DNA from: an uncultured Verrucomicrobia subdivision 3 bacterium
GTDB lineage: Bacteria > Verrucomicrobiota > Verrucomicrobiia > Limisphaerales > UBA11358
Assembly (NCBI GenBank): GCA_903850425.1
Contig: CAINLR010000001.1
Coordinates: 171,538 to 235,537 of the forward strand
DNA: 64,000 nucleotides
Direction of reading: 5' to 3'
Part shown: positions 14,868 through 27,550 of the stretch, in pieces
Numbering within the stretch: the first letter of the stretch is position 1
Layout of the letters: each line of letters starts with the position of its first letter
Program-made: the position numbers and the translations under genes
Notes under the pieces: model-generated
The model's input: only the letters and a program-made list of their open reading frames with translations
The model's database searches: none
What the model was told of the DNA's origin: nothing

Positions 14868-15638
14868 ATGAATCCCCATCGAACCGCCCGTCAAAACGGC
14901 TTTACCCTGATTGAATTGCTGGTCGTTATCGCCATCATAGCCATTCTCGCCGCCATGCTGTTGCCGGCGCTGGCCAAAGCCAAGGAGAAGGCCAAGGCGA
15001 TTGCCTGTATCAGCAACAACAAACAAATTGGTTTGGCGATGATGATGTATGTCGGCGACAACAACGACTACTTGCCACCGTTGAACGAGGCGAACTTCAT
15101 GAAGCACACGAGCAACTGGTATTTCAAGATTTTGGATGGCGGCAAGTATCTGACCAGCAGCGCCACCTCGAACAATGTCTGGCGTTGCACCGCCGTGCAG
15201 AATGCGGACATCCAGTCCGGCACCGTGACTTATTATAGCTCTCCTTGCGAAGGGTATGGACCGCTCGAAGATATCATCAACCCGGATAAGGGAATTATTC
15301 GCTACGCCTGGGATCTCGCCGACAACGTTCAAGGCAGCCGCAAATTAAGTTCCATCAAGCGGACCAGCGAAATCTGGTTGATTGGCGACGTGGGGCAGCC
15401 AAAAGTCGCCGCCGAAAACCTGATCGCTTCCGCGCCTCGCAGTGGCTACTATACGGATATTACTGTGATCAAACCGATCCTCGGCTCAGCCTGGAAAACT
15501 GTGAACCCGCCCAAACAGGCCGCCTGCCGACACAATAGTCGCGCCAACTTTTCGGCGTGCGACGGACATGTCGAGACGTGGAACTGGTCCGACCTGGCCA
15601 CCGACAAAAATGATACCTTTGCGCTGAACGGCTTTTGA
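14868..15638 (+). CDS. Type II secretion/type IV pilin-like pseudopilin of the H-X9-DG family
   Basis: Prepilin N-terminus [34 protein letters not shown]-terminal [12 protein letters not shown] (H-X9-DG). Confidence 0.92.
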
Positions 15639-15677: not shown

Positions 15678-17117
15678 ATGAATAATACAGTTCGCAACAC
15701 GCTTGGCATTTGTGCCGGCCTTACCCTCGCGGTGGCTACGGCGCTGGCCGATAATGTGCTGACCAATCCCGGCTTTGAATCCGATGCCCCGGGCCAAAGT
15801 CAAAATCTAGTCGGGTGGACTTGGTATGGCCAGTCGTGGGGGAATACCTTTAATGAGACTGGCGCGGAAGCCCGGAGTGGCAACAACTACTTCAAGGTCT
15901 TTCCCGGATTCACCAAGAGCATCAACTACAGCGGCATCCAGCAGGACTATCCGGCAGCCCCGGGCACAACCTATACGGCGGAGGGTTGGGCCAAGATGAT
16001 TTCTTCGGATAGTCTCACCGGCTCCAACGTCGCGTGGATCGAAGTTTCATTCCGCGATGCCCACGCCAACCAACTCGCACTCTATCGCTCCAGCCTGATC
16101 AACACCAACGCCATTCTGGCCGGCACTTTTCCGAAAGACACCTGGGTCAGTCTGCCGATCACCAACCAATATGACCCGAATAACTATACCGTTACCAACA
16201 CCACGACTATGCTGGTCGCTCCGCCGGGAACTACCGTCGCGCGGTATCAGGTAGTCTTGCAAGGCGACGTCGCGGGTTCCACTGGTTCGGTTTATTTTGA
16301 TGATCTCACCTTAAACCTGACAAGTCCTGCGGCCACGGCACCAGCCGGGGATTGGCGGCTAGTCTGGAGCGATGAGTTTAATCAGCCGGATGGCAGTGCG
16401 CCGGATGCCACCAAGTGGAGTTACGAGACGGGCGGAAATGGCTGGGGTAACCACGAACTGGAATACTACACCTCCCGAACGAATAACGCGCGCATTGAGG
16501 CTGGTAAACTGGTGATCGAAGCACGGGAGGAAAGTTTCAGCGGCAAGAACTACACCTCCGCGCGGCTTTTGACCAAAGGGAAACACGCGTGGACTTATGG
16601 CCGCATCGAGGCGCGCATGAAGATTCCCCACGGACAAGGCATCTGGCCGGCCTTTTGGATGCTGGGTGCGAACATTGCCTCGACTTCCTGGCCCACCTGC
16701 GGCGAGATTGACATCATGGAGAATATAGGCCGCGAACCGGGATTGATCCACGGCACGGTGCATGGGCCGGGCTATTCCGGCAGCGGCGGAATTGGCGGAC
16801 CGGCGAGCCTGCCGGGCGGCTCCGCCTTTGCCGATGACTTTCACGTTTACAGCATCGAATGGGAGACAAATCGCATCCGCTGGAGTGTGGATGGTCAGCC
16901 GTATTTCACCGTCACGCCCGCGAGTCTGCCTCCCGGAACAAAGTGGGTTTACAATCAACCGCAGTTCATGCTGTTGAACCTGGCGGTGGGCGGTGCCTGG
17001 CCGGGCAATCCCAATGCCACAACAATCCTGCCGCAACGCATGGTTGTGGACTACGTCCGCGTTTATCAAAAATCCGTGCCACCGCTGCCGGCGCAAAATC
17101 TGCGAATCAGTAATTGA
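15678..17117 (+). CDS. Secreted GH16 endo-beta-glucanase (laminarinase-like) with N-terminal CBM-like domain
   Basis: GH16 catalytic EIDIME (CGEIDIMENIGREPG); WRLVWSDEFNQPDG; N-terminal VLTNPGFESD... domain. Confidence 0.93.
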   Translation: MNNTVRNTLGICAGLTLAVATALADNVLTNPGFESDAPGQSQNLVGWTWYGQSWGNTFNETGAEARSGNNYFKVFPGFTKSINYSGIQQDYPAAPGTTYTAEGWAKMISSDSLTGSNVAWIEVSFRDAHANQLALYRSSLINTNAILAGTFPKDTWVSLPITNQYDPNNYTVTNTTTMLVAPPGTTVARYQVVLQGDVAGSTGSVYFDDLTLNLTSPAATAPAGDWRLVWSDEFNQPDGSAPDATKWSYETGGNGWGNHELEYYTSRTNNARIEAGKLVIEAREESFSGKNYTSARLLTKGKHAWTYGRIEARMKIPHGQGIWPAFWMLGANIASTSWPTCGEIDIMENIGREPGLIHGTVHGPGYSGSGGIGGPASLPGGSAFADDFHVYSIEWETNRIRWSVDGQPYFTVTPASLPPGTKWVYNQPQFMLLNLAVGGAWPGNPNATTILPQRMVVDYVRVYQKSVPPLPAQNLRISN

Positions 17118-17197
17118 ACCCCAATTCGTTCTTCAGCGGCCACCGGCTTTTTGCAACTGGCTCAATCCGGTGAATCGCGTTAAGTTCACCGAGTTGC

Positions 17198-18778
17198 ATG
17201 TTCAAATTGTTGCGCAGAAAATTCTTCTTGTTTTTCGGCTTGGCCATAATGGCTTTGCCGGTGCTGGCCGGCAAAGTGCTGACCAATCCGGGTTTTGAAT
17301 CCGACCCCACGAGCCATAGTCAAACGCTCATCGGGTGGACCAGCTACGGATCGAATAGCTACAACGAGACCGGTGCGGCGGCGCGTAGTGGCAGCAATTA
17401 TTTGAAGGTTTATCAGGGTTTTACCAGTGCCGTAAACTATACCGGCATCTATCAGGATTACATTTCTGGTCCGGGTGCCACCTATACCGCCGACGGCTGG
17501 GCCAAAACGATTTCGGCTGACACGCTCGCCGGCCAAAATGCCGCTTGGCTGGAAGTCACCTTTCGTGATGCCAGTGGCCACCAACTCGCTCTCTACCGCT
17601 CCAGCGTGATCAACACTAACGCTATTTTCGCCGGCACGTTTCCGAAAAACCTCTGGGTCAATTTGCCGGTGACCAATCAATACAATCCCGCCACCTATGC
17701 GATTACCAATACGGCCCAAACGTTGGTGGCACCGCCGGGAACTTACTTCGTGCGGTATCAAGTAGTCTTCCAAGGCGACGCGGCAAACTCGGGCGGCTCG
17801 GTCTATTTTGACGACTTTAATTTGAACCTGACGAGTGCCTCGGCTTACGGTGATTGGAACATTGTTTGGAGCGACGAGTTTAATGGCACGAACATTAACA
17901 CCAATACCTGGACTTACGACCTTGGCGGTGGCGGTTGGGGTAATAGTGAACTGGAGTATTATACCAGTCGCACCAACAACGCGTTTACTTCCGGCGGACT
18001 ACTCCACATTGTCGCCCGCAAGGAGACTACGAACAGCTCAAGCTACACCTCTGCCCGCATGAAAACCCAGGGGCGGGTCGCGTGGAAATACGGACGTTTT
18101 GAATGGCGCGCGCGTTTGCCCGCCGGCACCGGCTTCTGGCCAGCCCTCTGGTTTCTCGGCACCAACATTACGTCCGTGAGCTGGCCGGGTTGCGGGGAAA
18201 TGGACGTGATAGAAAACAATGGGGCCGTGACCAACTATGTCGGCGGGGCCTTGCATTGCGGCAGCGACAGTTCCGACACCTATACCTTTCCCGATGGCGG
18301 TGCCGTGACCAACTTCCATAACTACGTTCTGGACTGGAGCACGAACGCATTTCTTTGGTATGTCGATGGCCATCTCTACCAGATCCAGACTAACTGGACG
18401 AGCAACCTCTCCGGCGCCGTCTATCCCGCACCGTTCGACAAACCCTGTTTCATCATCATGAATCTGGCGGTCGGCGGAAATTATGTGGGCAATCCCAGTG
18501 TCACCAGCATCAATACCAATGGCGGTTTTCCGGGCGAATTGCAGGTGGACTATCTTCGGGTCTTTGACCAGACCGCGCCGCTCCAGCTTTCCCTGACACG
18601 CACCAACAATGCGTTGCGGCTGGTCTGGCCGAGTAATGTAGTCGCCCACTTACAGGCGCAACTCAACCCACTCTATGGCAGTCTGGGCACGAATTGGTTG
18701 GATCTAATCCCGCCCACCAATCCTGCCAGTATCAACCCGACCAACCGCAATGCCTATTACCGTTTGCAGTCGCCTTGA
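17198..18778 (+). CDS. Second secreted GH16 endo-beta-glucanase, paralogous to upstream gene
   Basis: GH16 catalytic EMDVIE (CGEMDVIENNGAV); WNIVWSDEFNGTNI; N-terminal domain closely similar to the 15678 gene; C-terminal YYRL domain. Confidence 0.93.
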   Translation: MFKLLRRKFFLFFGLAIMALPVLAGKVLTNPGFESDPTSHSQTLIGWTSYGSNSYNETGAAARSGSNYLKVYQGFTSAVNYTGIYQDYISGPGATYTADGWAKTISADTLAGQNAAWLEVTFRDASGHQLALYRSSVINTNAIFAGTFPKNLWVNLPVTNQYNPATYAITNTAQTLVAPPGTYFVRYQVVFQGDAANSGGSVYFDDFNLNLTSASAYGDWNIVWSDEFNGTNINTNTWTYDLGGGGWGNSELEYYTSRTNNAFTSGGLLHIVARKETTNSSSYTSARMKTQGRVAWKYGRFEWRARLPAGTGFWPALWFLGTNITSVSWPGCGEMDVIENNGAVTNYVGGALHCGSDSSDTYTFPDGGAVTNFHNYVLDWSTNAFLWYVDGHLYQIQTNWTSNLSGAVYPAPFDKPCFIIMNLAVGGNYVGNPSVTSINTNGGFPGELQVDYLRVFDQTAPLQLSLTRTNNALRLVWPSNVVAHLQAQLNPLYGSLGTNWLDLIPPTNPASINPTNRNAYYRLQSP

Positions 18779-18943: not shown

Positions 18944-21091
18944 TTAAGCTGCAGCCTTTTCAATATTCAAGGGCATCACCGCCGGCAGGTCCGGACGAGG
19001 GGGAGGTTGATCGAGACATTCCCGGACGAATTGTGCCAGCGTGCCAATGGAATAGGGCTTGGGAAGGAAGTTGCGCCCTTCCAATAGGGAGATGTCCTTG
19101 CCCGCCATACCCGGGCTATAGCCGCTGGTGTAGATCACTTTGAGCCCGGGACATTTGGCCTTGAGCCGCTCCGCCAGTTCGCCGCCCATAATGGTTCCCG
19201 GCATTACCATGTCGGTCACCAGCAAATCAATTTTCCGGGTGGCCTGATCCCACACCTCGAGCGCGTGATGGCCTGAGGCCGCTTCCAGCACATAGTAGCC
19301 TTGAATCCGGAGCACCTGCACGACCATCTCGCGCAGGGCGTCTTCGTCCTCGGCCACCAGCACGGTCTCCCGCCCCCGGCGCAAGTTCGCGTGGATCGGC
19401 TCATCCGCTTTTTCGGCCAACTGCCGCGTGGCGGCGAAGTAGATGCGGAAGGTGGTGCCGCAATCCGGCTTGCTCTCCACTTCCAGCCAACCGTGATGCT
19501 GCCGCACAATGCCAAAGACGGTGGACAACCCCAGGCCGGTTCCTTTGCCCACCGGCTTGGTGGTGAAGAAGGGTTCAAAGATCCGGGTGAGAATTTTTGT
19601 ATCCATGCCGGAACCGTTGTCGCTGAGCGTCAGGCACACATATTCGCCATCGCGGGGTTCCGGATCCATCGGCGTGGGGGCGCGGTGGATTTCACAGCGC
19701 GCGGTGCTCATGGAAATTTTTCCGCCCGCCGTCATGGCATCGCGGGCATTAACCACCAGGTTCATGACGATTTGTTCCACCATGCTGGTGTCGGCATGGA
19801 TGGCGGGCAACGGGTCGGCGGGCCGGAATTCCAGTTCCACCAGATCGCCCACCAGCCGTTGCAGCATCCGAATCGAGTTGCGCAGAATGTCGTTGAGATT
19901 CTGGTGCCGGAACTGCATGACCTGCTTGCGGCTGAACATGAGCAGTTGTCGGATTAACGTGGCCGCCCGGCCCGAAGCCTTGATGATTTCCTCGAGCGAC
20001 TCGAGTTGGGGATCGTTGGCCACCAGCGCCTGCTGCATCAGTCCGGCGTGCCCCTGGATCACGGTGAGAATATTGTTGAAGTCGTGCGCCACACCGGCGG
20101 CCAACTGCCCGATGGCCTCCATCTTCTGGGCCTGGCGCAACTGGCGCTCCAGCAGCGTCCGCTCCGAGACGTCCATCGCCAGCAGCAACACATGCGGGCT
20201 GCCGTCCATCATCACCGGGGCCAGCGACACCAGCACCTCGCGCAGCACCCCCTGCTGGCTGCGAATGCAGCCTTCCTGATCCTGCACCAGATCCTGCCGC
20301 AGCAGATTCTCGAACCACCGGTCCGCCTGTTCGGGTTTATCCCAGATGAACAACTCGCCCGGCGTCCGGCCAATCATGTCGGCGCGCGCATAGCCGCTGA
20401 CTTCGGCGAGCCGCTCATTCACATCCACGAAGCGGCGTTCCGGCATGGTCACGATGCCGCTGGGCACCGGGCTGGCATGAAACGCTTTCGAGAAGCGCTC
20501 TTCGGACAGGCCCAGAGATTTGTTGGCCTCGGCCAGTTCCTGGGTCCGCTGCCGCACCATGTCTTCCAATTCGGCCAGTTTGAAACCGGCCTGGCGATTG
20601 AGCTGCCATTTCTTGGTCAGCGCGTGCGCGAGCTGCTGCACCTCCACGTTGTCGAATGGTTTCTTGAGAACGACAAGACTATCGGGCTGGCCGACTTTGG
20701 CCCGCAGCTCTTCCCATGAATAGTCCGAGTAGGCCGTGCAGACGACGACTTGAATCTCAGGATTCACTTCCCAAATGCGGGCGATGGTTTCCACGCCGTC
20801 CCAGCCGGGCGGCATCCGCACATCCACAAAAGCCAAGGCGTAGGGCCGGTGCGCGGCGAGCGCCTGCTGCACCATCGCGAGGCCTTCCTGGCCTTGGAAG
20901 GCGGAGTCCAGTTCGAAACTAAGGGCGGCCGGGGCGGGTTGCGCTTCCTCGAACAAGGCGGCCTCCAGCGCGTTCACGGCCGCATGGCCGCTGTCCGCCG
21001 GAGACAGGATTTTCCGAAAATCCGCATGGATGGTCGGGTTGTCATCCACGATCAGGATGCGCTGGTTCGGTTTTGAATCGGTATGTTCCAT
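18944..21091 (-). CDS. Hybrid histidine kinase: REC-PAS-HisKA-HATPase-REC
   Basis: ILIVDDNPTIHADFRKIL; AGVAHDFNNILTVIQGHAGL; DNGSGM...GTGLGLSTVFGI; VLVAEDEDALREMV ... LVTDMVMPG. Confidence 0.93.
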   Translation of the reverse strand: MEHTDSKPNQRILIVDDNPTIHADFRKILSPADSGHAAVNALEAALFEEAQPAPAALSFELDSAFQGQEGLAMVQQALAAHRPYALAFVDVRMPPGWDGVETIARIWEVNPEIQVVVCTAYSDYSWEELRAKVGQPDSLVVLKKPFDNVEVQQLAHALTKKWQLNRQAGFKLAELEDMVRQRTQELAEANKSLGLSEERFSKAFHASPVPSGIVTMPERRFVDVNERLAEVSGYARADMIGRTPGELFIWDKPEQADRWFENLLRQDLVQDQEGCIRSQQGVLREVLVSLAPVMMDGSPHVLLLAMDVSERTLLERQLRQAQKMEAIGQLAAGVAHDFNNILTVIQGHAGLMQQALVANDPQLESLEEIIKASGRAATLIRQLLMFSRKQVMQFRHQNLNDILRNSIRMLQRLVGDLVELEFRPADPLPAIHADTSMVEQIVMNLVVNARDAMTAGGKISMSTARCEIHRAPTPMDPEPRDGEYVCLTLSDNGSGMDTKILTRIFEPFFTTKPVGKGTGLGLSTVFGIVRQHHGWLEVESKPDCGTTFRIYFAATRQLAEKADEPIHANLRRGRETVLVAEDEDALREMVVQVLRIQGYYVLEAASGHHALEVWDQATRKIDLLVTDMVMPGTIMGGELAERLKAKCPGLKVIYTSGYSPGMAGKDISLLEGRNFLPKPYSIGTLAQFVRECLDQPPPRPDLPAVMPLNIEKAAA

Positions 21092-21103
21092 AATGAATGA
21101 CCC

Positions 21104-23074
21104 CTAGGCAGCCGCGCCCGGCTCCTTATTGTTGGCACCGGCCACCGGTAATTCAAGCATGAAACTCGCCCCCTGGCCAAGGCCGTTGCTCTCGGCGACC
21201 AGACTGCCGCCCATCTCCTTGGCCGCGTTGGCGCCGCTGTGCAGGCCAAACCCGTGGCCGTCCTTCTTGGTGGTGAAACCATGGTTGAAAATCTTGACCA
21301 GATGATCCGGCGCAATGCCGATTCCGTTGTCGCGGATGCTGAGCTTCACCCGGCCGGAAGTAGCGAGCTCCACCCGAACCACCAACTGCTTATGCTCCGG
21401 CTGTTGTGCGTCCATCGCATACTTGGCGTTGCGGATAATGTTGATGAGGATTTGCAGCACCTTGTGCCGGTCCACGCAGACCAGCGGCACGGGCTGGTCC
21501 AGTTCGCGAACGACTTGCACCCGATGCCGCTCAAAGGCGGCAGCGTTCATCCGCAACGCATCCTCGACCAGTTCCACCGGCGACAGGTTTTCAAAAGCGC
21601 CGGAGACCTTGGCATAGCTTTGTTGCATGGCCACAATCTCCTTGATGTGCTCGATGTGCTGGCCCACGGAATTCATTTCCGCGATCAGCTTGGCCTGCTC
21701 ATCGGCCAACTGGGCAGCCACGACGGCGAAATACTCCGGCAACAACTTGCCCTTCGGATCATTGGTCAGAAAGGCGGCGAGTTGGCTGTTCTGCTCGCGC
21801 AACAAATTTGCGGCGCGGCACAGGTTGGGCACCTTGGACTGCCGCAGGCGGTCGCCCACCAGCGTGGCCGACACGCTCACGCTGTTGAGCACGTTGCCCA
21901 CGTTGTGCAACACGCCCGTGGCCACTTCCGCCATGCCCGCCTGCCGGGAGGTTTCCACCAGTTTGTGGTTCAACCTTTCCAGTTTCACCGCGGATTCCCG
22001 CTGCTCGCTGATGTCTTGAAAAATGCCGCGCACGGCGGCGGCGTCACCGTGCTCAATGAGCACGACCCCGCTTTCGCGAATCCACACCGTGCGGCCATCG
22101 GCGGCCACCATGCGGTAGTCATAGCTGTAAGGCTTGCGGCGCGCCACCATTTCGTGGCAGGTCTGAATGGCTTTGGCGGCATCCTCCGGATGCAGTTTCT
22201 CCGCCCAGAAGTTTGGGTTGGCCAGCCATTCTTCAGCCGTGTAACCCAGCAGGCGCTCACTCTGCCGGCTGACGAAAGTGAACTGGAATGAGTCCGCCGC
22301 ACACTCCCAGACGATGCCGTCCAAGGAGTGAATCATCGCCTCCATTTTCTGTTGCGAAAGGTTCAAAGCCACGTCCTGACTTTGGATGCGGCCCAGCATT
22401 TCGTTAAACGACTCGGTCAAGCGCCCCAGTTCGTCGCGCCGGCCGTTGACCGGCGCGCGGACGGAGTAGTCCTTTTTTTCGCCAACGACGCGGGCGGTTT
22501 CCGCGAGTTGCAGCACCGGGGCCGTGATGACGCGCTGCAACCGGCTCGAAAGGAGCACGGCCAGCAAAGCGGACACCAGCATGACGCCCAGGATCACCAG
22601 CGCGTAGAGACCCAACAGCGCCCGCAACGTCGCCTGATAGTCGGATTGCAGGTAAAGTGTGCCCACCTCCTTGTTGTCGGATTCGACTGGCTGCGTGTAG
22701 AGGAGATGGCCGTTGAAGTAGAGAAATTCGCCGGCGCGCGGAAACTGCGCCAACGCCGGCGCCTCACTGAGTTCGCCATATTGCGCCAGAACGTTGGTGC
22801 CCGTGACCAGACAGGCGAATGCGACGGTGGGCTTGGCTTTGAGCGACTGCACCATTTCGCCGGCCGAATTGGTATCTCCGAACGTCACGATGGCCGTGCT
22901 GTTTTTGGCGATGATGGCCGCCAGCGTCGCGGTGTCGCGCTGGAAGTTGGCGCGGAAGTTCAGCACCTGGAAAGTAAAGAGCGCCGCGATGGCGACGCAG
23001 AGCACCGTGCCGCAAATGAGCATGGTCATCAACAGCATCTTCCGTTGGATTGGCAGGTCGTAAAAGGTTTTCAT
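21104..23074 (-). CDS. Membrane sensor histidine kinase with CHASE8-like ectodomain, HAMP, PAS, HATPase
   Basis: MKTFYDLPIQRKMLLMTMLICGTVLCVAIAALFTFQ...; two TMs; HAMP ITAPVLQLAETARVV; PAS/PAC; DNGIGIAPDHLVKIFNHGFTTKKDGHGFGLHSGANAA. ORF extension to 23341 overlaps yfiR and is unlikely. Confidence 0.9.
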   Translation of the reverse strand: MKTFYDLPIQRKMLLMTMLICGTVLCVAIAALFTFQVLNFRANFQRDTATLAAIIAKNSTAIVTFGDTNSAGEMVQSLKAKPTVAFACLVTGTNVLAQYGELSEAPALAQFPRAGEFLYFNGHLLYTQPVESDNKEVGTLYLQSDYQATLRALLGLYALVILGVMLVSALLAVLLSSRLQRVITAPVLQLAETARVVGEKKDYSVRAPVNGRRDELGRLTESFNEMLGRIQSQDVALNLSQQKMEAMIHSLDGIVWECAADSFQFTFVSRQSERLLGYTAEEWLANPNFWAEKLHPEDAAKAIQTCHEMVARRKPYSYDYRMVAADGRTVWIRESGVVLIEHGDAAAVRGIFQDISEQRESAVKLERLNHKLVETSRQAGMAEVATGVLHNVGNVLNSVSVSATLVGDRLRQSKVPNLCRAANLLREQNSQLAAFLTNDPKGKLLPEYFAVVAAQLADEQAKLIAEMNSVGQHIEHIKEIVAMQQSYAKVSGAFENLSPVELVEDALRMNAAAFERHRVQVVRELDQPVPLVCVDRHKVLQILINIIRNAKYAMDAQQPEHKQLVVRVELATSGRVKLSIRDNGIGIAPDHLVKIFNHGFTTKKDGHGFGLHSGANAAKEMGGSLVAESNGLGQGASFMLELPVAGANNKEPGAAA

Positions 23075-23658
23075 GGTTTCAGAGTAGAAGTGGGGGCGGC
23101 CGTTTCCACGATCGCCGCCAGTTGCAAGAGCTTGGAGCTGATTTTCAGGCCGGCCGCCTTGGCCGCCATTGGGTTGACTTCCATTTTTACGGATTTGCTC
23201 ACCAGCCGCAGGTTCACCATCCCGCCGCGTTGGGCAAAGCCATTGATATCGCTCACCGTCAGCACGGGACGGCCCGCGAGCACTCCCAATACCGCCGGCA
23301 ACCGGTCCGCCTCCGAACGGCTGATGAATACCACCTGGCAACCCCGCAGCTCAGCGTCGGTGCCCAGGCGTTTGATGCGCAGCGGGCGATGGTTCACCAA
23401 CTCGCCGCGGACGGTCTCATCCAACGGCGGGCCGAACGGATCCTCGCCGATAATGCCGATGATGATGGGCGCGTTGGTGGTCGCGAACGCGTTGGCCGGC
23501 CAGTCCGTGAACTTGGTGAAGTTGTAGAGATACGCCGCCTTGAGTTGGTATTCGCTCACGCCGTTGCCCGGATCCGCCGCGACGGCCCAACCGTTGGCCA
23601 GCCAGAGGCAGACCAACCCCAGCAGCCCGAGGCGGCGGATGAGTATCGGTGGGTTCAT
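23071..23658 (-). CDS. YfiR family (DUF4154) periplasmic protein
   Basis: EYQLKAAYLYNFTKFTDWPANAF, IIGIIGEDPFG, CQVVFISRSEA, VLTVSDINGFAQRGGMVNL: YfiR/DUF4154 hallmarks. Confidence 0.88.
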   Translation of the reverse strand: MNPPILIRRLGLLGLVCLWLANGWAVAADPGNGVSEYQLKAAYLYNFTKFTDWPANAFATTNAPIIIGIIGEDPFGPPLDETVRGELVNHRPLRIKRLGTDAELRGCQVVFISRSEADRLPAVLGVLAGRPVLTVSDINGFAQRGGMVNLRLVSKSVKMEVNPMAAKAAGLKISSKLLQLAAIVETAAPTSTLKP

Positions 23659-23676
23659 GACGGCTTGGGACAGAGT

Positions 23677-25788
23677 TTAGAATTTCCAAGTTGCCTTGAG
23701 GCGGAACTGCCGGCCGTCCTGTGGGATGGCGTTCTGCGTGAAATCGCCGGACGCTGGGTCGGAGTAATGCTGGTCAAAGAGATTGTAAATGCTGGCGGAC
23801 ACTTCCAGCCCCTTGACCAGTTCGCGGCTGAACAAGGTGACATTGGCCACCAGGAAGCCGTCCACACCGCCGCCCCGCACCGTGTCCCGATTGCTCATGC
23901 CTTGCAGTTCCAGACTGGCAAAGACTTTCTCCTGCCAGACCGGCACGGAGAGACTCACCTTGCCCAGATGCTCGGGCGAATTGCTCAACCGCCGGCCCAT
24001 CTGATGGTCGTCTGTGTGGGCCAACGTATAGCTGGCCCGCCCACATAAGCCGCTGGCCCAGTGTGCCGCCACTTCAACTTCGGCCCCGGCCGTCTGCACC
24101 GAATCCAAGTTCCCGTAGAAGTGCAGGCCATCCTCTTCATCATACTGGTAAACGATGAGATCCTTGATGTCGTTGTAGAACAGGGAGCCGCTGGCACTCC
24201 AGTGCAGTCCGAGTTTTTGTTCGCAGACCAGTTCATAGGAACGAATGGTTTCGGGGCCGAGATTCGCATGTTCGTCCTTGTTGCCCGCCTCGTAGTATCG
24301 CTCATAGGCGTCGGGGGCGCGAAAAGCCTGGCCGTATAGGAGCTTGAAGGTGGTCGGGGTCCAGGGCTGATAGATGAGCGCGGCGCGCGGATTCACCGTG
24401 TCGCCAAAGGTGTTGAAGTGGTCATAGCGGACGCCGGCGTTGAGGATCAGGTCGGGCAACACCTGATACTCATCCTGCGCGTAGAGGCTGAAATAACTGG
24501 CCGACTCAGCCGAGTCGAGGTAGGTGGTGTGCGGGGAGAGATCGTAATCTTTCTGGTCAAGCTGGAAATCAGCGCGCACTTCCGCGCCGGCCGTGACCCG
24601 GTGTTGTTCCAGCCAGCTCTTGCTCACCTGCACCTCGCCCCCCACCGAACCGGACTGGGCCAGTTGTTCGTTCAAGTAAACGGGTTGAAACGGATCGAGG
24701 TAGTCGTAGGGAACCTGGCTCTGTAATTGGTAATAGTCATAATAGGCGCGGGCCATGACTTCCCAATCGCTTTCGAACGTGTGCTGGAACTTGAGGTCGG
24801 CAAAGGCGCGCGTATCGGTCGTCGCGAAGTGCGGGTCATTGAAAATGGTGATCGCATCGGCCGAGGAGAATGGCGCGGTGGGCCAGGTTTTCTGGCGCTC
24901 CACCCAGCCGCCTTCCAGCGAGAAGCCCCGCCATGAAATACTCGCGAACGCGTTGCGCGCAGATCCGCCGTCCAGGTTCTCGGCCACACCATGGTTGATC
25001 GCAGCGAATTCCGGGTAGTAGAGCCGCGGGGCGCCCGCGCTGTCGTAGAGCATGCCCGAGAGCAGCAATTCCACGCCATTGGTGAACTGATTCCCGTAGC
25101 TGACGCGGCCGGTGTAAGTATCAAAGCTCCCCACCGACCCGGCCACCTCCGCGCCCTGCACGTCCCGGCCTTGGCGGGTGATGACGTTGATAACGCCAAA
25201 AAAAGCGTTGTTGCCGTAGAGCGAGGACCCCGGTCCGCGAATCACTTCCACGCGTTCGATCAGGTCCACATCCAAGATGAAATCGGTGCCGCTGGCTGCC
25301 GTGTCGAAAATGGGATCATTCAGGCGGTGGCCGTCCACCGTAAGCAATAAACGCCCGCCGTAGTCGCCGGGGATGTTGATGCCGCGCATTCCGATGGCGT
25401 TGTAACCGCGATCATACGTCGCATAAAATCCAGGCACGCTGCGCAGGATTTCCGCCAAGGTGCGATGCCCCTGTTTTTTGATTTCATCCGCCGAGATGAT
25501 GGTGACGGCGGACGGGGCTTCGGTAAGTTTCTGTTCGTGCTTGGAGGCGCCGAATACCTTCTCCACCTTCACTTCCATCAACTCCTCCAGACTGAGTTTC
25601 TTGAGGCTGCGAACGACGGCGTTGGTCGAGGAACCGGCCGGAGCTGACGCTGCTTCGCTGGCCCTGGCGGCCGGCGCGTGGAGGCCGAACCACGCGACCG
25701 CCAGCGCCGTGGTTAAAGCGTGTTCATAGCCGCGCACGCGCACCGGCTTGGGCGACCGGCGTTGCGGGCGGGTGCTATCTGTCTTCAT
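23677..25788 (-). CDS. TonB-dependent receptor
   Basis: Plug TEAPSAVTIISADEIKKQGHRTLAEILRSVPGFYA; IERVEVIRGPGSSLYGNNAFFGVINVITR; terminal F (ATWKF). Confidence 0.95.
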   Translation of the reverse strand: MKTDSTRPQRRSPKPVRVRGYEHALTTALAVAWFGLHAPAARASEAASAPAGSSTNAVVRSLKKLSLEELMEVKVEKVFGASKHEQKLTEAPSAVTIISADEIKKQGHRTLAEILRSVPGFYATYDRGYNAIGMRGINIPGDYGGRLLLTVDGHRLNDPIFDTAASGTDFILDVDLIERVEVIRGPGSSLYGNNAFFGVINVITRQGRDVQGAEVAGSVGSFDTYTGRVSYGNQFTNGVELLLSGMLYDSAGAPRLYYPEFAAINHGVAENLDGGSARNAFASISWRGFSLEGGWVERQKTWPTAPFSSADAITIFNDPHFATTDTRAFADLKFQHTFESDWEVMARAYYDYYQLQSQVPYDYLDPFQPVYLNEQLAQSGSVGGEVQVSKSWLEQHRVTAGAEVRADFQLDQKDYDLSPHTTYLDSAESASYFSLYAQDEYQVLPDLILNAGVRYDHFNTFGDTVNPRAALIYQPWTPTTFKLLYGQAFRAPDAYERYYEAGNKDEHANLGPETIRSYELVCEQKLGLHWSASGSLFYNDIKDLIVYQYDEEDGLHFYGNLDSVQTAGAEVEVAAHWASGLCGRASYTLAHTDDHQMGRRLSNSPEHLGKVSLSVPVWQEKVFASLELQGMSNRDTVRGGGVDGFLVANVTLFSRELVKGLEVSASIYNLFDQHYSDPASGDFTQNAIPQDGRQFRLKATWKF

Positions 25789-26057
25789 ATTGCTTTGGAA
25801 TTTACCAGCGAACTTGAGGCGCCATAAACCGCATCCACATGGGTGGCGGTCAGTTCTCCGCAGCTCAAGTGGTCCCGTGTTTTCGCCGGATTGGGTTGCT
25901 CGAGATTATTTGTGTCCAGAACTAATGCAAGCGTGCCTTGTGCTGGGATTGACGGAACGCAGCCCAAGCCGGCCATGGCCAAAAAAAGAGACAATCCGCC
26001 CGGCAAATTTCGCCGCCGCAGCAGATTGGCTAGGCAAAATCTACAGCTTCGAGTCAT
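25785..26057 (-). CDS. Small secreted protein, function unknown, ATGA-overlapping with TonB-dependent receptor start
   Basis: MTRSCRFCLANLLRRRNLPGGLSLFLAMAGLGCVPSIPAQGTLALVLDTNNLEQPNPAKTRDHLSCGELTATHVDAVYGASSSLVNSKAI*; signal-peptide-like N-terminus; its TGA stop overlaps the receptor ATG (ATGA). Confidence 0.45.
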   Translation of the reverse strand: MTRSCRFCLANLLRRRNLPGGLSLFLAMAGLGCVPSIPAQGTLALVLDTNNLEQPNPAKTRDHLSCGELTATHVDAVYGASSSLVNSKAI

Positions 26058-26320: not shown

Positions 26321-27550
26321 CTAGAAATCCTTGAAATCACCGGCGAGCGGAATTTCCCGCCGGCGATTTCCCGCCGTTGCTGCCGGGGTGTGCCTGCTGC
26401 CATTGGCGGGCGCGAATTTTTTTGCAATTTTGGCGGCGGCCTGAAATTGCTGGAGGCGCGGCGCGAGCACATCGGGATTGGCAGCGGCCTTTTCGCTCGT
26501 GCCACCCACGAGTTGCATGAGTTCGCCGACCGCTTGTTGCATCAACGCGGCTTGCGCGCCAAGTTCCTGGGCGGCGGCGGCGCTTTCCTCGGCACCGGCG
26601 GCGTTGCCCTGCGTCACCTTGTCCATCTGGCCCACCGCCAGGTTGATTTGGGTGATCCCTTGGGTCTGCTCGCGCGAGGCCCCGGCCACTTCCGCCGCCA
26701 GTTCATCCACCTGCCGCGCCTTGGTCACAATGTCCGTCAACGCGTCGGTCACTTGCTGGCTGATTTGCACGCCTTGGGCGGTCTTGAGGATGGCCCCTTC
26801 GATTTTCGCCGCCGTCTCTTTCGCCGCCACCGCGCTGCGTTGCGCCAGGCTGCGGACTTCGTCAGCGACCACGGCAAAACCCATGCCCGCTTCCCCTGCC
26901 CGGGCCGCTTCCACGGCCGCGTTCAACGCCAGAATGTTCGTCTGGAAAGCAATCTCATCAATCGTCTGAATGATCTTGGCGATATCGTCGGACGACGCTT
27001 TGATGCTGTGCATCGCGGTGTTCATCGCCGTCATGTCCCCGGCCCCCTTGTCGGCCGCGCCGCGCGCGGCGCGGGCGAGGTCGTTCGCCTTCTGAGCGTT
27101 GTCCGCGTTGCGCCGCGTCATGCTCGCCAGTTCCTCCAGGGACGCACTCGTCTCTTCAATCGAAGCCGCCTGTTCCCCCGCCCCTTGCGCCAGGGTCTGG
27201 CTGGAGCCGGAAATTTGCGCGGCGGTTTGGTTTACGCACTCGGAGCCGTGCCTCAATCTCTGGGCCAGATCTCGCAGCACTTGGCCCATCGTGGCCACCA
27301 CGCCCCACAGACTTCCCAAGGACAATAACGTGCCGAGCGCACCGATGCCGAGGACGACACCGTAGGCCTGGCGCACGGCGGCATGGAGGCTGGCGGCACT
27401 GGCCGGAGTGCTCCGGGTGAGTTCTTGGATGAGGCGGTCAATCCCGTGGAGCGCATACAGGGACGAGCACGCCAACAGCCCGGCGGAGGCCATCACAACG
27501 GCAAAGCCGGCAATGATTCTTTGCCGCGCCGTCCAGTTGAAAGTTTTCAT
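26321..27550 (-). CDS. Methyl-accepting chemotaxis protein
   Basis: [19 protein letters not shown]; signalling hairpin [49 protein letters not shown]-terminal [11 protein letters not shown]. Confidence 0.93.

Follow-up and report, generated by a model that had tools for sequence, protein, structure and literature searches.

The window analysed here is a stretch of 64,000 nucleotides from an uncultured Verrucomicrobia subdivision 3 bacterium. Four large genes of its minus strand form a compact operon, encoding a TonB-dependent receptor (TBDR), YfiR, a CHASE8-HAMP-PAS kinase, and a REC-PAS-kinase-REC hybrid kinase. The features of the locus are the following:

25785..26057, minus strand: small ORF, 90 aa, unlikely to be part of the system
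23677..25788, minus strand: TBDR, 703 aa, with plug (88-199) and barrel (300-670), from Pfam
25600-25602, minus strand: codon of TBDR K63
25540..25608, minus strand: TBDR N-terminal motif, residues 61-83 (SLKKLSLEELMEVKVEKVFGASK), pre-plug, proposed YfiR contact
23071..23658, minus strand: YfiR (DUF4154), 195 aa with signal peptide, from Pfam, NCBIfam, and AlphaFold/Foldseek
23401-23403, 23509-23511, 23131-23133, and 23122-23124, minus strand: codons of YfiR E86, F50, K176, and Q179, respectively
21104..23074, minus strand: sensor histidine kinase, 656 aa, with TM, CHASE8 (41-142), TM, HAMP, PAS_3, and kinase core
22874..22903, minus strand: kinase residues 58-67 (NSTAIVTFGD), equivalent in position to AAVVF, the YfiR-binding motif in P. 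aeruginosa YfiN
18944..21091, minus strand: hybrid kinase, 715 aa, REC-PAS-HisKA-HATPase-REC, from Pfam
20597-21091, minus strand: N-terminal receiver of the hybrid kinase

A gap of 18 nt separates the TBDR and YfiR genes, the YfiR and CHASE8 kinase genes overlap by an ATGA at 23071-23074, and 12 nt lie between the genes of the two kinases. The coordinates, strand, and junctions given for these four genes in an earlier note on this DNA all match the sequence. That note, however, had described a five-gene operon including a small secreted ORF, which is unsupported as a component. The ORF at 25785-26057 is an open frame with a signal-like hydrophobic stretch. It has no family match in Pfam or NCBIfam, and no homologue in any other locus compared, including that of Pedosphaera sp. 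(L060), whose TBDR is 71% identical. Being without relatives, even beside this closest known orthologous operon, it was dropped from the system. Its identity as a truncated TBDR N-terminus was suggested by a pairwise score (11/500 shuffles) and rejected by the family motif model, against which it scores at chance level (181 of 2000 shuffles were as good).

No output regulator is found within the operon. An Rfam search of the window returned no matches, and promoter and terminator scans gave no more matches than shuffles. Two tandem GH16 glucanase-like genes (window 15678-18778, plus strand) converge on the operon, a possible hint to a ligand and no more, and a prepilin-like ORF is located at 14868-15638. 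Of the five YfiR loci in this genome, three have chemoreceptor genes nearby, at window 26321-27550 (minus strand), L008:5967-8168, and L007:1181-2830; in L008, MCP and CheW genes immediately precede YfiR.

YfiR is identified by Pfam PF13689/DUF4154 (7.6e-47, 159.4 bits for a cut-off of 24.9) and by the NCBIfam model YfiR_like_TOL0243 (NF053591), with 161.6 bits, above the equivalog cut-off of 125. Its AlphaFold model has a pLDDT of 92.5. The best 15 PDB matches retrieved with this model by Foldseek are all P. aeruginosa YfiR structures (TM 0.64-0.70 by query), followed by substrate-binding-protein folds. The stabilising Cys145-Cys152 disulfide is a trait of P. aeruginosa YfiR, not of the Pfam family. 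In the window's YfiR, a single cysteine (C107) is found outside the signal peptide, which leaves no disulfide of this type.

The kinase ectodomain was described earlier as CHASE8-like, and Pfam CHASE8 (PF17152) indeed matches residues 41-142 (1.2e-13, 51.6 bits, above the cut-off of 27). The domain lies between two TM helices, followed by a HAMP domain (179-231), and Pfam also matches PAS_3 and HATPase. The ectodomain model displays a PAS/CACHE-like fold, and a PDB sequence search with the ectodomain returned HAMP matches only. The kinase motifs are intact, with H390 in an HNVGN phosphoacceptor box and both N and G boxes. The hybrid kinase, matched by Pfam REC (twice), PAS, HisKA, and HATPase, likewise retains its H336 and the receiver aspartates in VDVRMP and TDMVMP. 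The TBDR matches Pfam Plug (9.1e-23) and the TonB_dep_Rec barrel (1.5e-43), and Pfam finds no STN signalling domain besides them. NCBIfam curates models named for the same TBDR-YfiR-kinase neighbourhood (TOL_0243, TOL_0244, HK_near_YfiR_like). YfiR passes its cut-off, whereas the kinase falls just short with HK_near_YfiR_like (NF053592, 181.9 bits for 194) and the TBDR stays below the equivalog cut-off of TonB_dep_TOL0244 (NF053590, 168 bits for 645), which makes the operon a divergent branch of this trio.

The operon resembles the P. aeruginosa YfiBNR (TpbB) system, with which it shares a periplasmic YfiR, a CHASE8-type domain with HAMP, an outer-membrane partner, and a predicted YfiR-binding motif conserved at the matching ectodomain position. 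The outer-membrane partner, however, is here a TBDR and there the OmpA-like lipoprotein YfiB, and the output is here a histidine kinase with a hybrid kinase and there a GGDEF domain. The two systems also differ by the lack of the disulfide and by an outer-membrane contact predicted on another YfiR face. YfiB is absent from the operon, the neighbours being the TBDR, an MCP, and the hybrid kinase. The proposal that a TBDR replaced YfiB presupposes a direction of change that is unsupported; the TBDR form is found in records of about ten phyla. Complete yfiBNR sets have been reported from alpha-, beta-, and gamma-proteobacteria only. A kinase output in place of GGDEF is confirmed, Pfam matching the kinase domains and no GGDEF, but it is not new: swapped outputs and YfiB loss were published in 2012 for divergent YfiNR pairs, including that of Opitutus (PMC3375315). 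Given this work and the NCBIfam trio models, the arrangement is already known in kind, and the new content lies in the contact predictions. No published TBDR-YfiR coupling was found among the open-access papers searched.

The survey comprised 257 distinct YfiR genes, taken from this genome, from other members of its order and phylum, and from a scan of GTDB contigs. Among the 186 YfiR loci with enough flank, a CHASE8 transducer lies directly downstream in 170 (91%), a TBDR is adjacent in 156 (84%), and both are present in 147, frequencies biased upward because the loci were fetched with YfiR queries close to the window's YfiR. The 60 loci contributed by the GTDB scan, the records of which name about ten phyla, comprise 58 with CHASE8 and 51 with both partners. 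The neighbours are therefore conserved, in support of the earlier note, and the TBDR/YfiR/CHASE8 wiring extends beyond this one genome; the TBDR/YfiR arrangement is common across many phyla. In the order's 321 genomes, a TBDR plug domain occurs in 131 of the 134 with YfiR versus 114 of the 187 without, according to hand-counted lists uncorrected for kinship. Readable outputs of the CHASE8 proteins are kinases in 142 of 146 cases and a chemoreceptor in one (L134). The same gene order is found on Alpha-, Beta-, and Gammaproteobacterial plasmids, those of Ralstonia and Pseudoalteromonas having a GGDEF-EAL output. An apparent TBDR-YfiR fusion (L116) was discarded, since a stretch of N and reading through the frame account for it.

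Residue couplings were computed with a home-made mean-field direct coupling analysis on 154-231 sequences, a small set for such an analysis. Between YfiR and the kinase (231 pairs, effective number 216), the top couplings are F50-T64 (1.84), K176-T60 (1.64), and K176-E73 (1.33), above the maxima of 26 random re-pairings (only 1.42, 1.19, and 1.02, respectively). Kinase residues 58-73 take 7 of the top 20 couplings, versus 0-2 in the re-pairings, and L178-A61, Q179-S70, and V161-V63 are also among these 20. The residue partners are chemically sensible: Y50 occurs with D/E64, R179 with D70, and K176 with E73. Tree-based likelihood ratios (LR) for correlated change reach 63.3 (176-60), 38.2 (176-73), and 34.7 (179-70), versus at most 14.7 for 70 random YfiR-kinase column pairs. 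For 50-64, the LR is 58.4 when coded Y versus D/E but 12.2 when coded by the commonest residue, and this trait, as well as that of YfiR 86-TBDR 63 below, undergoes only about 8-21 changes on the trees. This coevolution of YfiR 50/176/179 with kinase 64/60/73/70 is new evidence.

In the kinase model, the 58-67 motif forms a short helix closing the long N-terminal helix, and F65 is shared by 186 of 201 relatives. The motif aligns with the stretch of YfiN in which YfiR-insensitive mutations map (A66-F70, the AAVVF site; PMC3375315), and the YfiR side aligns with the Pseudomonas C-terminal face (PMC4655355). The YfiR-kinase interface claimed earlier is thus supported, as a predicted contact, by coevolution at the expected AAVVF-equivalent motif.

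Between YfiR and the TBDR (154 pairs), the strongest coupling is E86-K63 (2.42, versus at most 1.33 in six re-pairings). YfiR E86 is found with TBDR K63 in 59 loci, and K86 is accompanied by T63 in 38 loci and by D61 in 44; a K86-K63 pairing is absent from the residue combinations listed. One second-rank coupling, YfiR 52-TBDR 173 (1.80), is not accounted for by the motif, and YfiR 88 and 112 couple weakly with the TBDR. On the tree, the 86-63 LR is 55.6; the largest value among 70 random YfiR-TBDR column pairs is 17.1. In nine plasmid loci kept outside the analysis, all eight readable cases are free of a like-charge clash at 86/63, and the Pseudoalteromonas plasmid loci present R86 opposite E63 or D63. 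Both proposed contacts, with the kinase and with the TBDR, hence display phylogeny-corrected coevolution, a signal that indirect coupling could produce as well as binding. The TBDR might conversely be a mere co-regulated transporter, next to a separate sensor of the envelope or redox state made up of YfiR and the kinase; shared descent would then account for the TBDR-YfiR couplings. Operon neighbours do travel together, coupling methods are phylogeny-sensitive at such depth, and a few YfiR and CHASE8 loci are devoid of a TBDR. This explanation is nevertheless very improbable in view of the 86-63 LR, far above random columns on the same tree, and of the charge complementarity in the further plasmid loci.

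The TBDR segment LKKLSLEELM, beside the TonB-box position, is conserved and present in nearly all YfiR-linked TBDRs, versus none of 20 TBDRs sampled from YfiR-less genomes of the order. With a 16-position motif model, the YfiR-linked TBDRs have a median score of 35 (5th percentile 13.4), versus 5.0 or less for these 20, which were picked by high plug score, a choice that may bias the sample. The latter mostly carry a plain TonB box, such as VVVTATR, in place of the motif. In this genome, all four TBDR plug domains sit at YfiR loci. At L060:627-6967, three tandem TBDRs, two with K63 and one with T63, precede a single YfiR with E86; several receptors may share one YfiR.

TonB-like (PF13103) and ExbB genes are found in this genome, with one of the matches beside an ExbB gene on contig 62, making energised gating possible; an absence of TonB, suggested by PF03544, was withdrawn on the PF13103 and ExbB matches. 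These genes would also serve a system in which the TBDR imports a small molecule and the kinase is under the control of ligand-bound YfiR, in the manner of LuxP and LuxQ. The substrate-binding-protein folds ranked by Foldseek after YfiR, and the pocket of P. aeruginosa YfiR that weakly binds L-Trp and vitamin B6 (PMC4887326), are in line with such a role. The published affinities are millimolar, however, and a ligand-binding YfiR gives no reason to expect a direct residue coupling between YfiR 86 and the N-terminus of the TBDR, or a TBDR motif specific to YfiR, so that this scheme appears improbable.

When 146 triples are modelled jointly, the highest couplings are still those of YfiR with the TBDR and with the kinase, and no TBDR-kinase coupling exceeds 0.82. 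Since both partners couple to YfiR and not to each other, YfiR is the likely link between them. For Pseudomonas, the proposal is that a single YfiR face serves both YfiB and YfiN, YfiB removing YfiR from YfiN (PMC4655355; PMC4887326). The same competition could operate here, with an activated TBDR occupying the kinase-binding face and pulling YfiR off the kinase. It would fit the gene order, the conserved YfiR-CHASE8 pair, and the binding of P. aeruginosa YfiB to the C-terminal YfiR face, at which YfiN is likewise proposed to bind (PMC4655355; PMC4887326). The strongest TBDR coupling, however, is at YfiR 86 and not on the kinase-coupled C-terminal face (161, 176-179), and the alignment puts residue 86 in a segment neighbouring the contacts of the P. 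aeruginosa YfiR dimer, which makes such a competition unlikely. The TBDR couplings and the kinase couplings fall on different regions of YfiR, and this favours a bridge under allosteric control. YfiR would then probably bridge receptor and kinase by two different surfaces, unlike the shared-surface sequestration of YfiBNR; we infer the separateness of these surfaces from sequence position and the Pseudomonas alignment. This suggests that YfiR may act as a bridge and not as a sponge alone, which bears on the outer-membrane control of YfiR.

We therefore read the operon, with a probability of roughly 0.6, as an outer-membrane-to-cytoplasm signalling system of the YfiR/CHASE8 type, running from the TBDR segment to YfiR, the kinase, and the hybrid kinase. 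The TBDR would sense, and might import, a ligand, and its pre-plug LKKLSLEELM segment would touch periplasmic YfiR around residue 86. The first and C-terminal helices of YfiR would bind the membrane-distal tip of the kinase CHASE8 (NSTAIVTFGD), keeping the transducer inactive, by homology with YfiR-YfiN. A ligand-dependent movement of the TBDR segment would alter the grip of YfiR on the transducer, whereupon the CHASE8 kinase would phosphorylate the N-terminal receiver of the hybrid, which would hand the signal to an unlinked output. Physical binding, the sign of regulation, ligand gating, and the direction of phosphotransfer are what we infer from these data. The named residue pairs turn a neighbourhood guess into charge-swap experiments feasible in any culturable host.

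Regarding the relay, among CHASE8 kinases with room downstream, the next gene encodes a REC_N-type partner for 24 of the 32 of HNVGN type versus none of 110 others. In L115, an N-terminal receiver of the same kind is joined to PAS-GGDEF-EAL. The pairing of HNVGN kinases with REC_N supports a putative phosphotransfer in which the CHASE8 kinase hands its phosphate to the N-terminal receiver of the hybrid kinase.

Outer-membrane transporter-to-cytoplasm signalling is known in detail mainly from the FecA/FpvA sigma-factor route. In FecA-FecR-FecI as here, a TBDR with an N-terminal periplasmic element signals inward. There, however, this element is a folded STN domain that engages an anti-sigma factor, whereas here a short segment and YfiR would meet a kinase ectodomain, without STN. 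OmpS of Alcanivorax dieselolei and TOL_0244 of Thalassolituus oleivorans, involved in long-chain alkane sensing, belong to the same broad TBDR group and are reported to trigger downstream responses. The output reported there is chemotaxis, and the ligand here need not match. TOL_0244, the namesake of the NCBIfam TBDR model, is similar to the alkane sensor OmpS and increases sevenfold on C28 alkane, in a paper that does not address YfiR (PMC6304351). There is about an even chance that the LxxLSLEELM TBDRs constitute a widespread receptor class docking YfiR away from the transducer interface, YfiR being a standing bridge with interchangeable outputs in about ten phyla. If so, they would define a TBDR signalling route apart from STN/anti-sigma signalling, with histidine kinases, chemoreceptors, and GGDEF-EAL proteins as outputs.

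Variants of the YfiR module are also observed. In this genome, L006:5601-8401 (contig 82) harbors a TBDR-YfiR pair with no adjoining CHASE8 kinase, its YfiR being 58% identical to the window's. L009:8664-10199 (contig 74) codes for a protein of 511 aa that combines sigma-70 regions 2 and 4 and a TM-like stretch with a YfiR domain at its C-terminus; it may be a fusion between a sigma factor and a YfiR sensor located in the periplasm. At L198:3511-6252, a natural fusion (signal peptide-YfiR-coiled coil-TM-HisKA-HATPase-REC) has YfiR built into the kinase, and L197 is a partial case resembling it.
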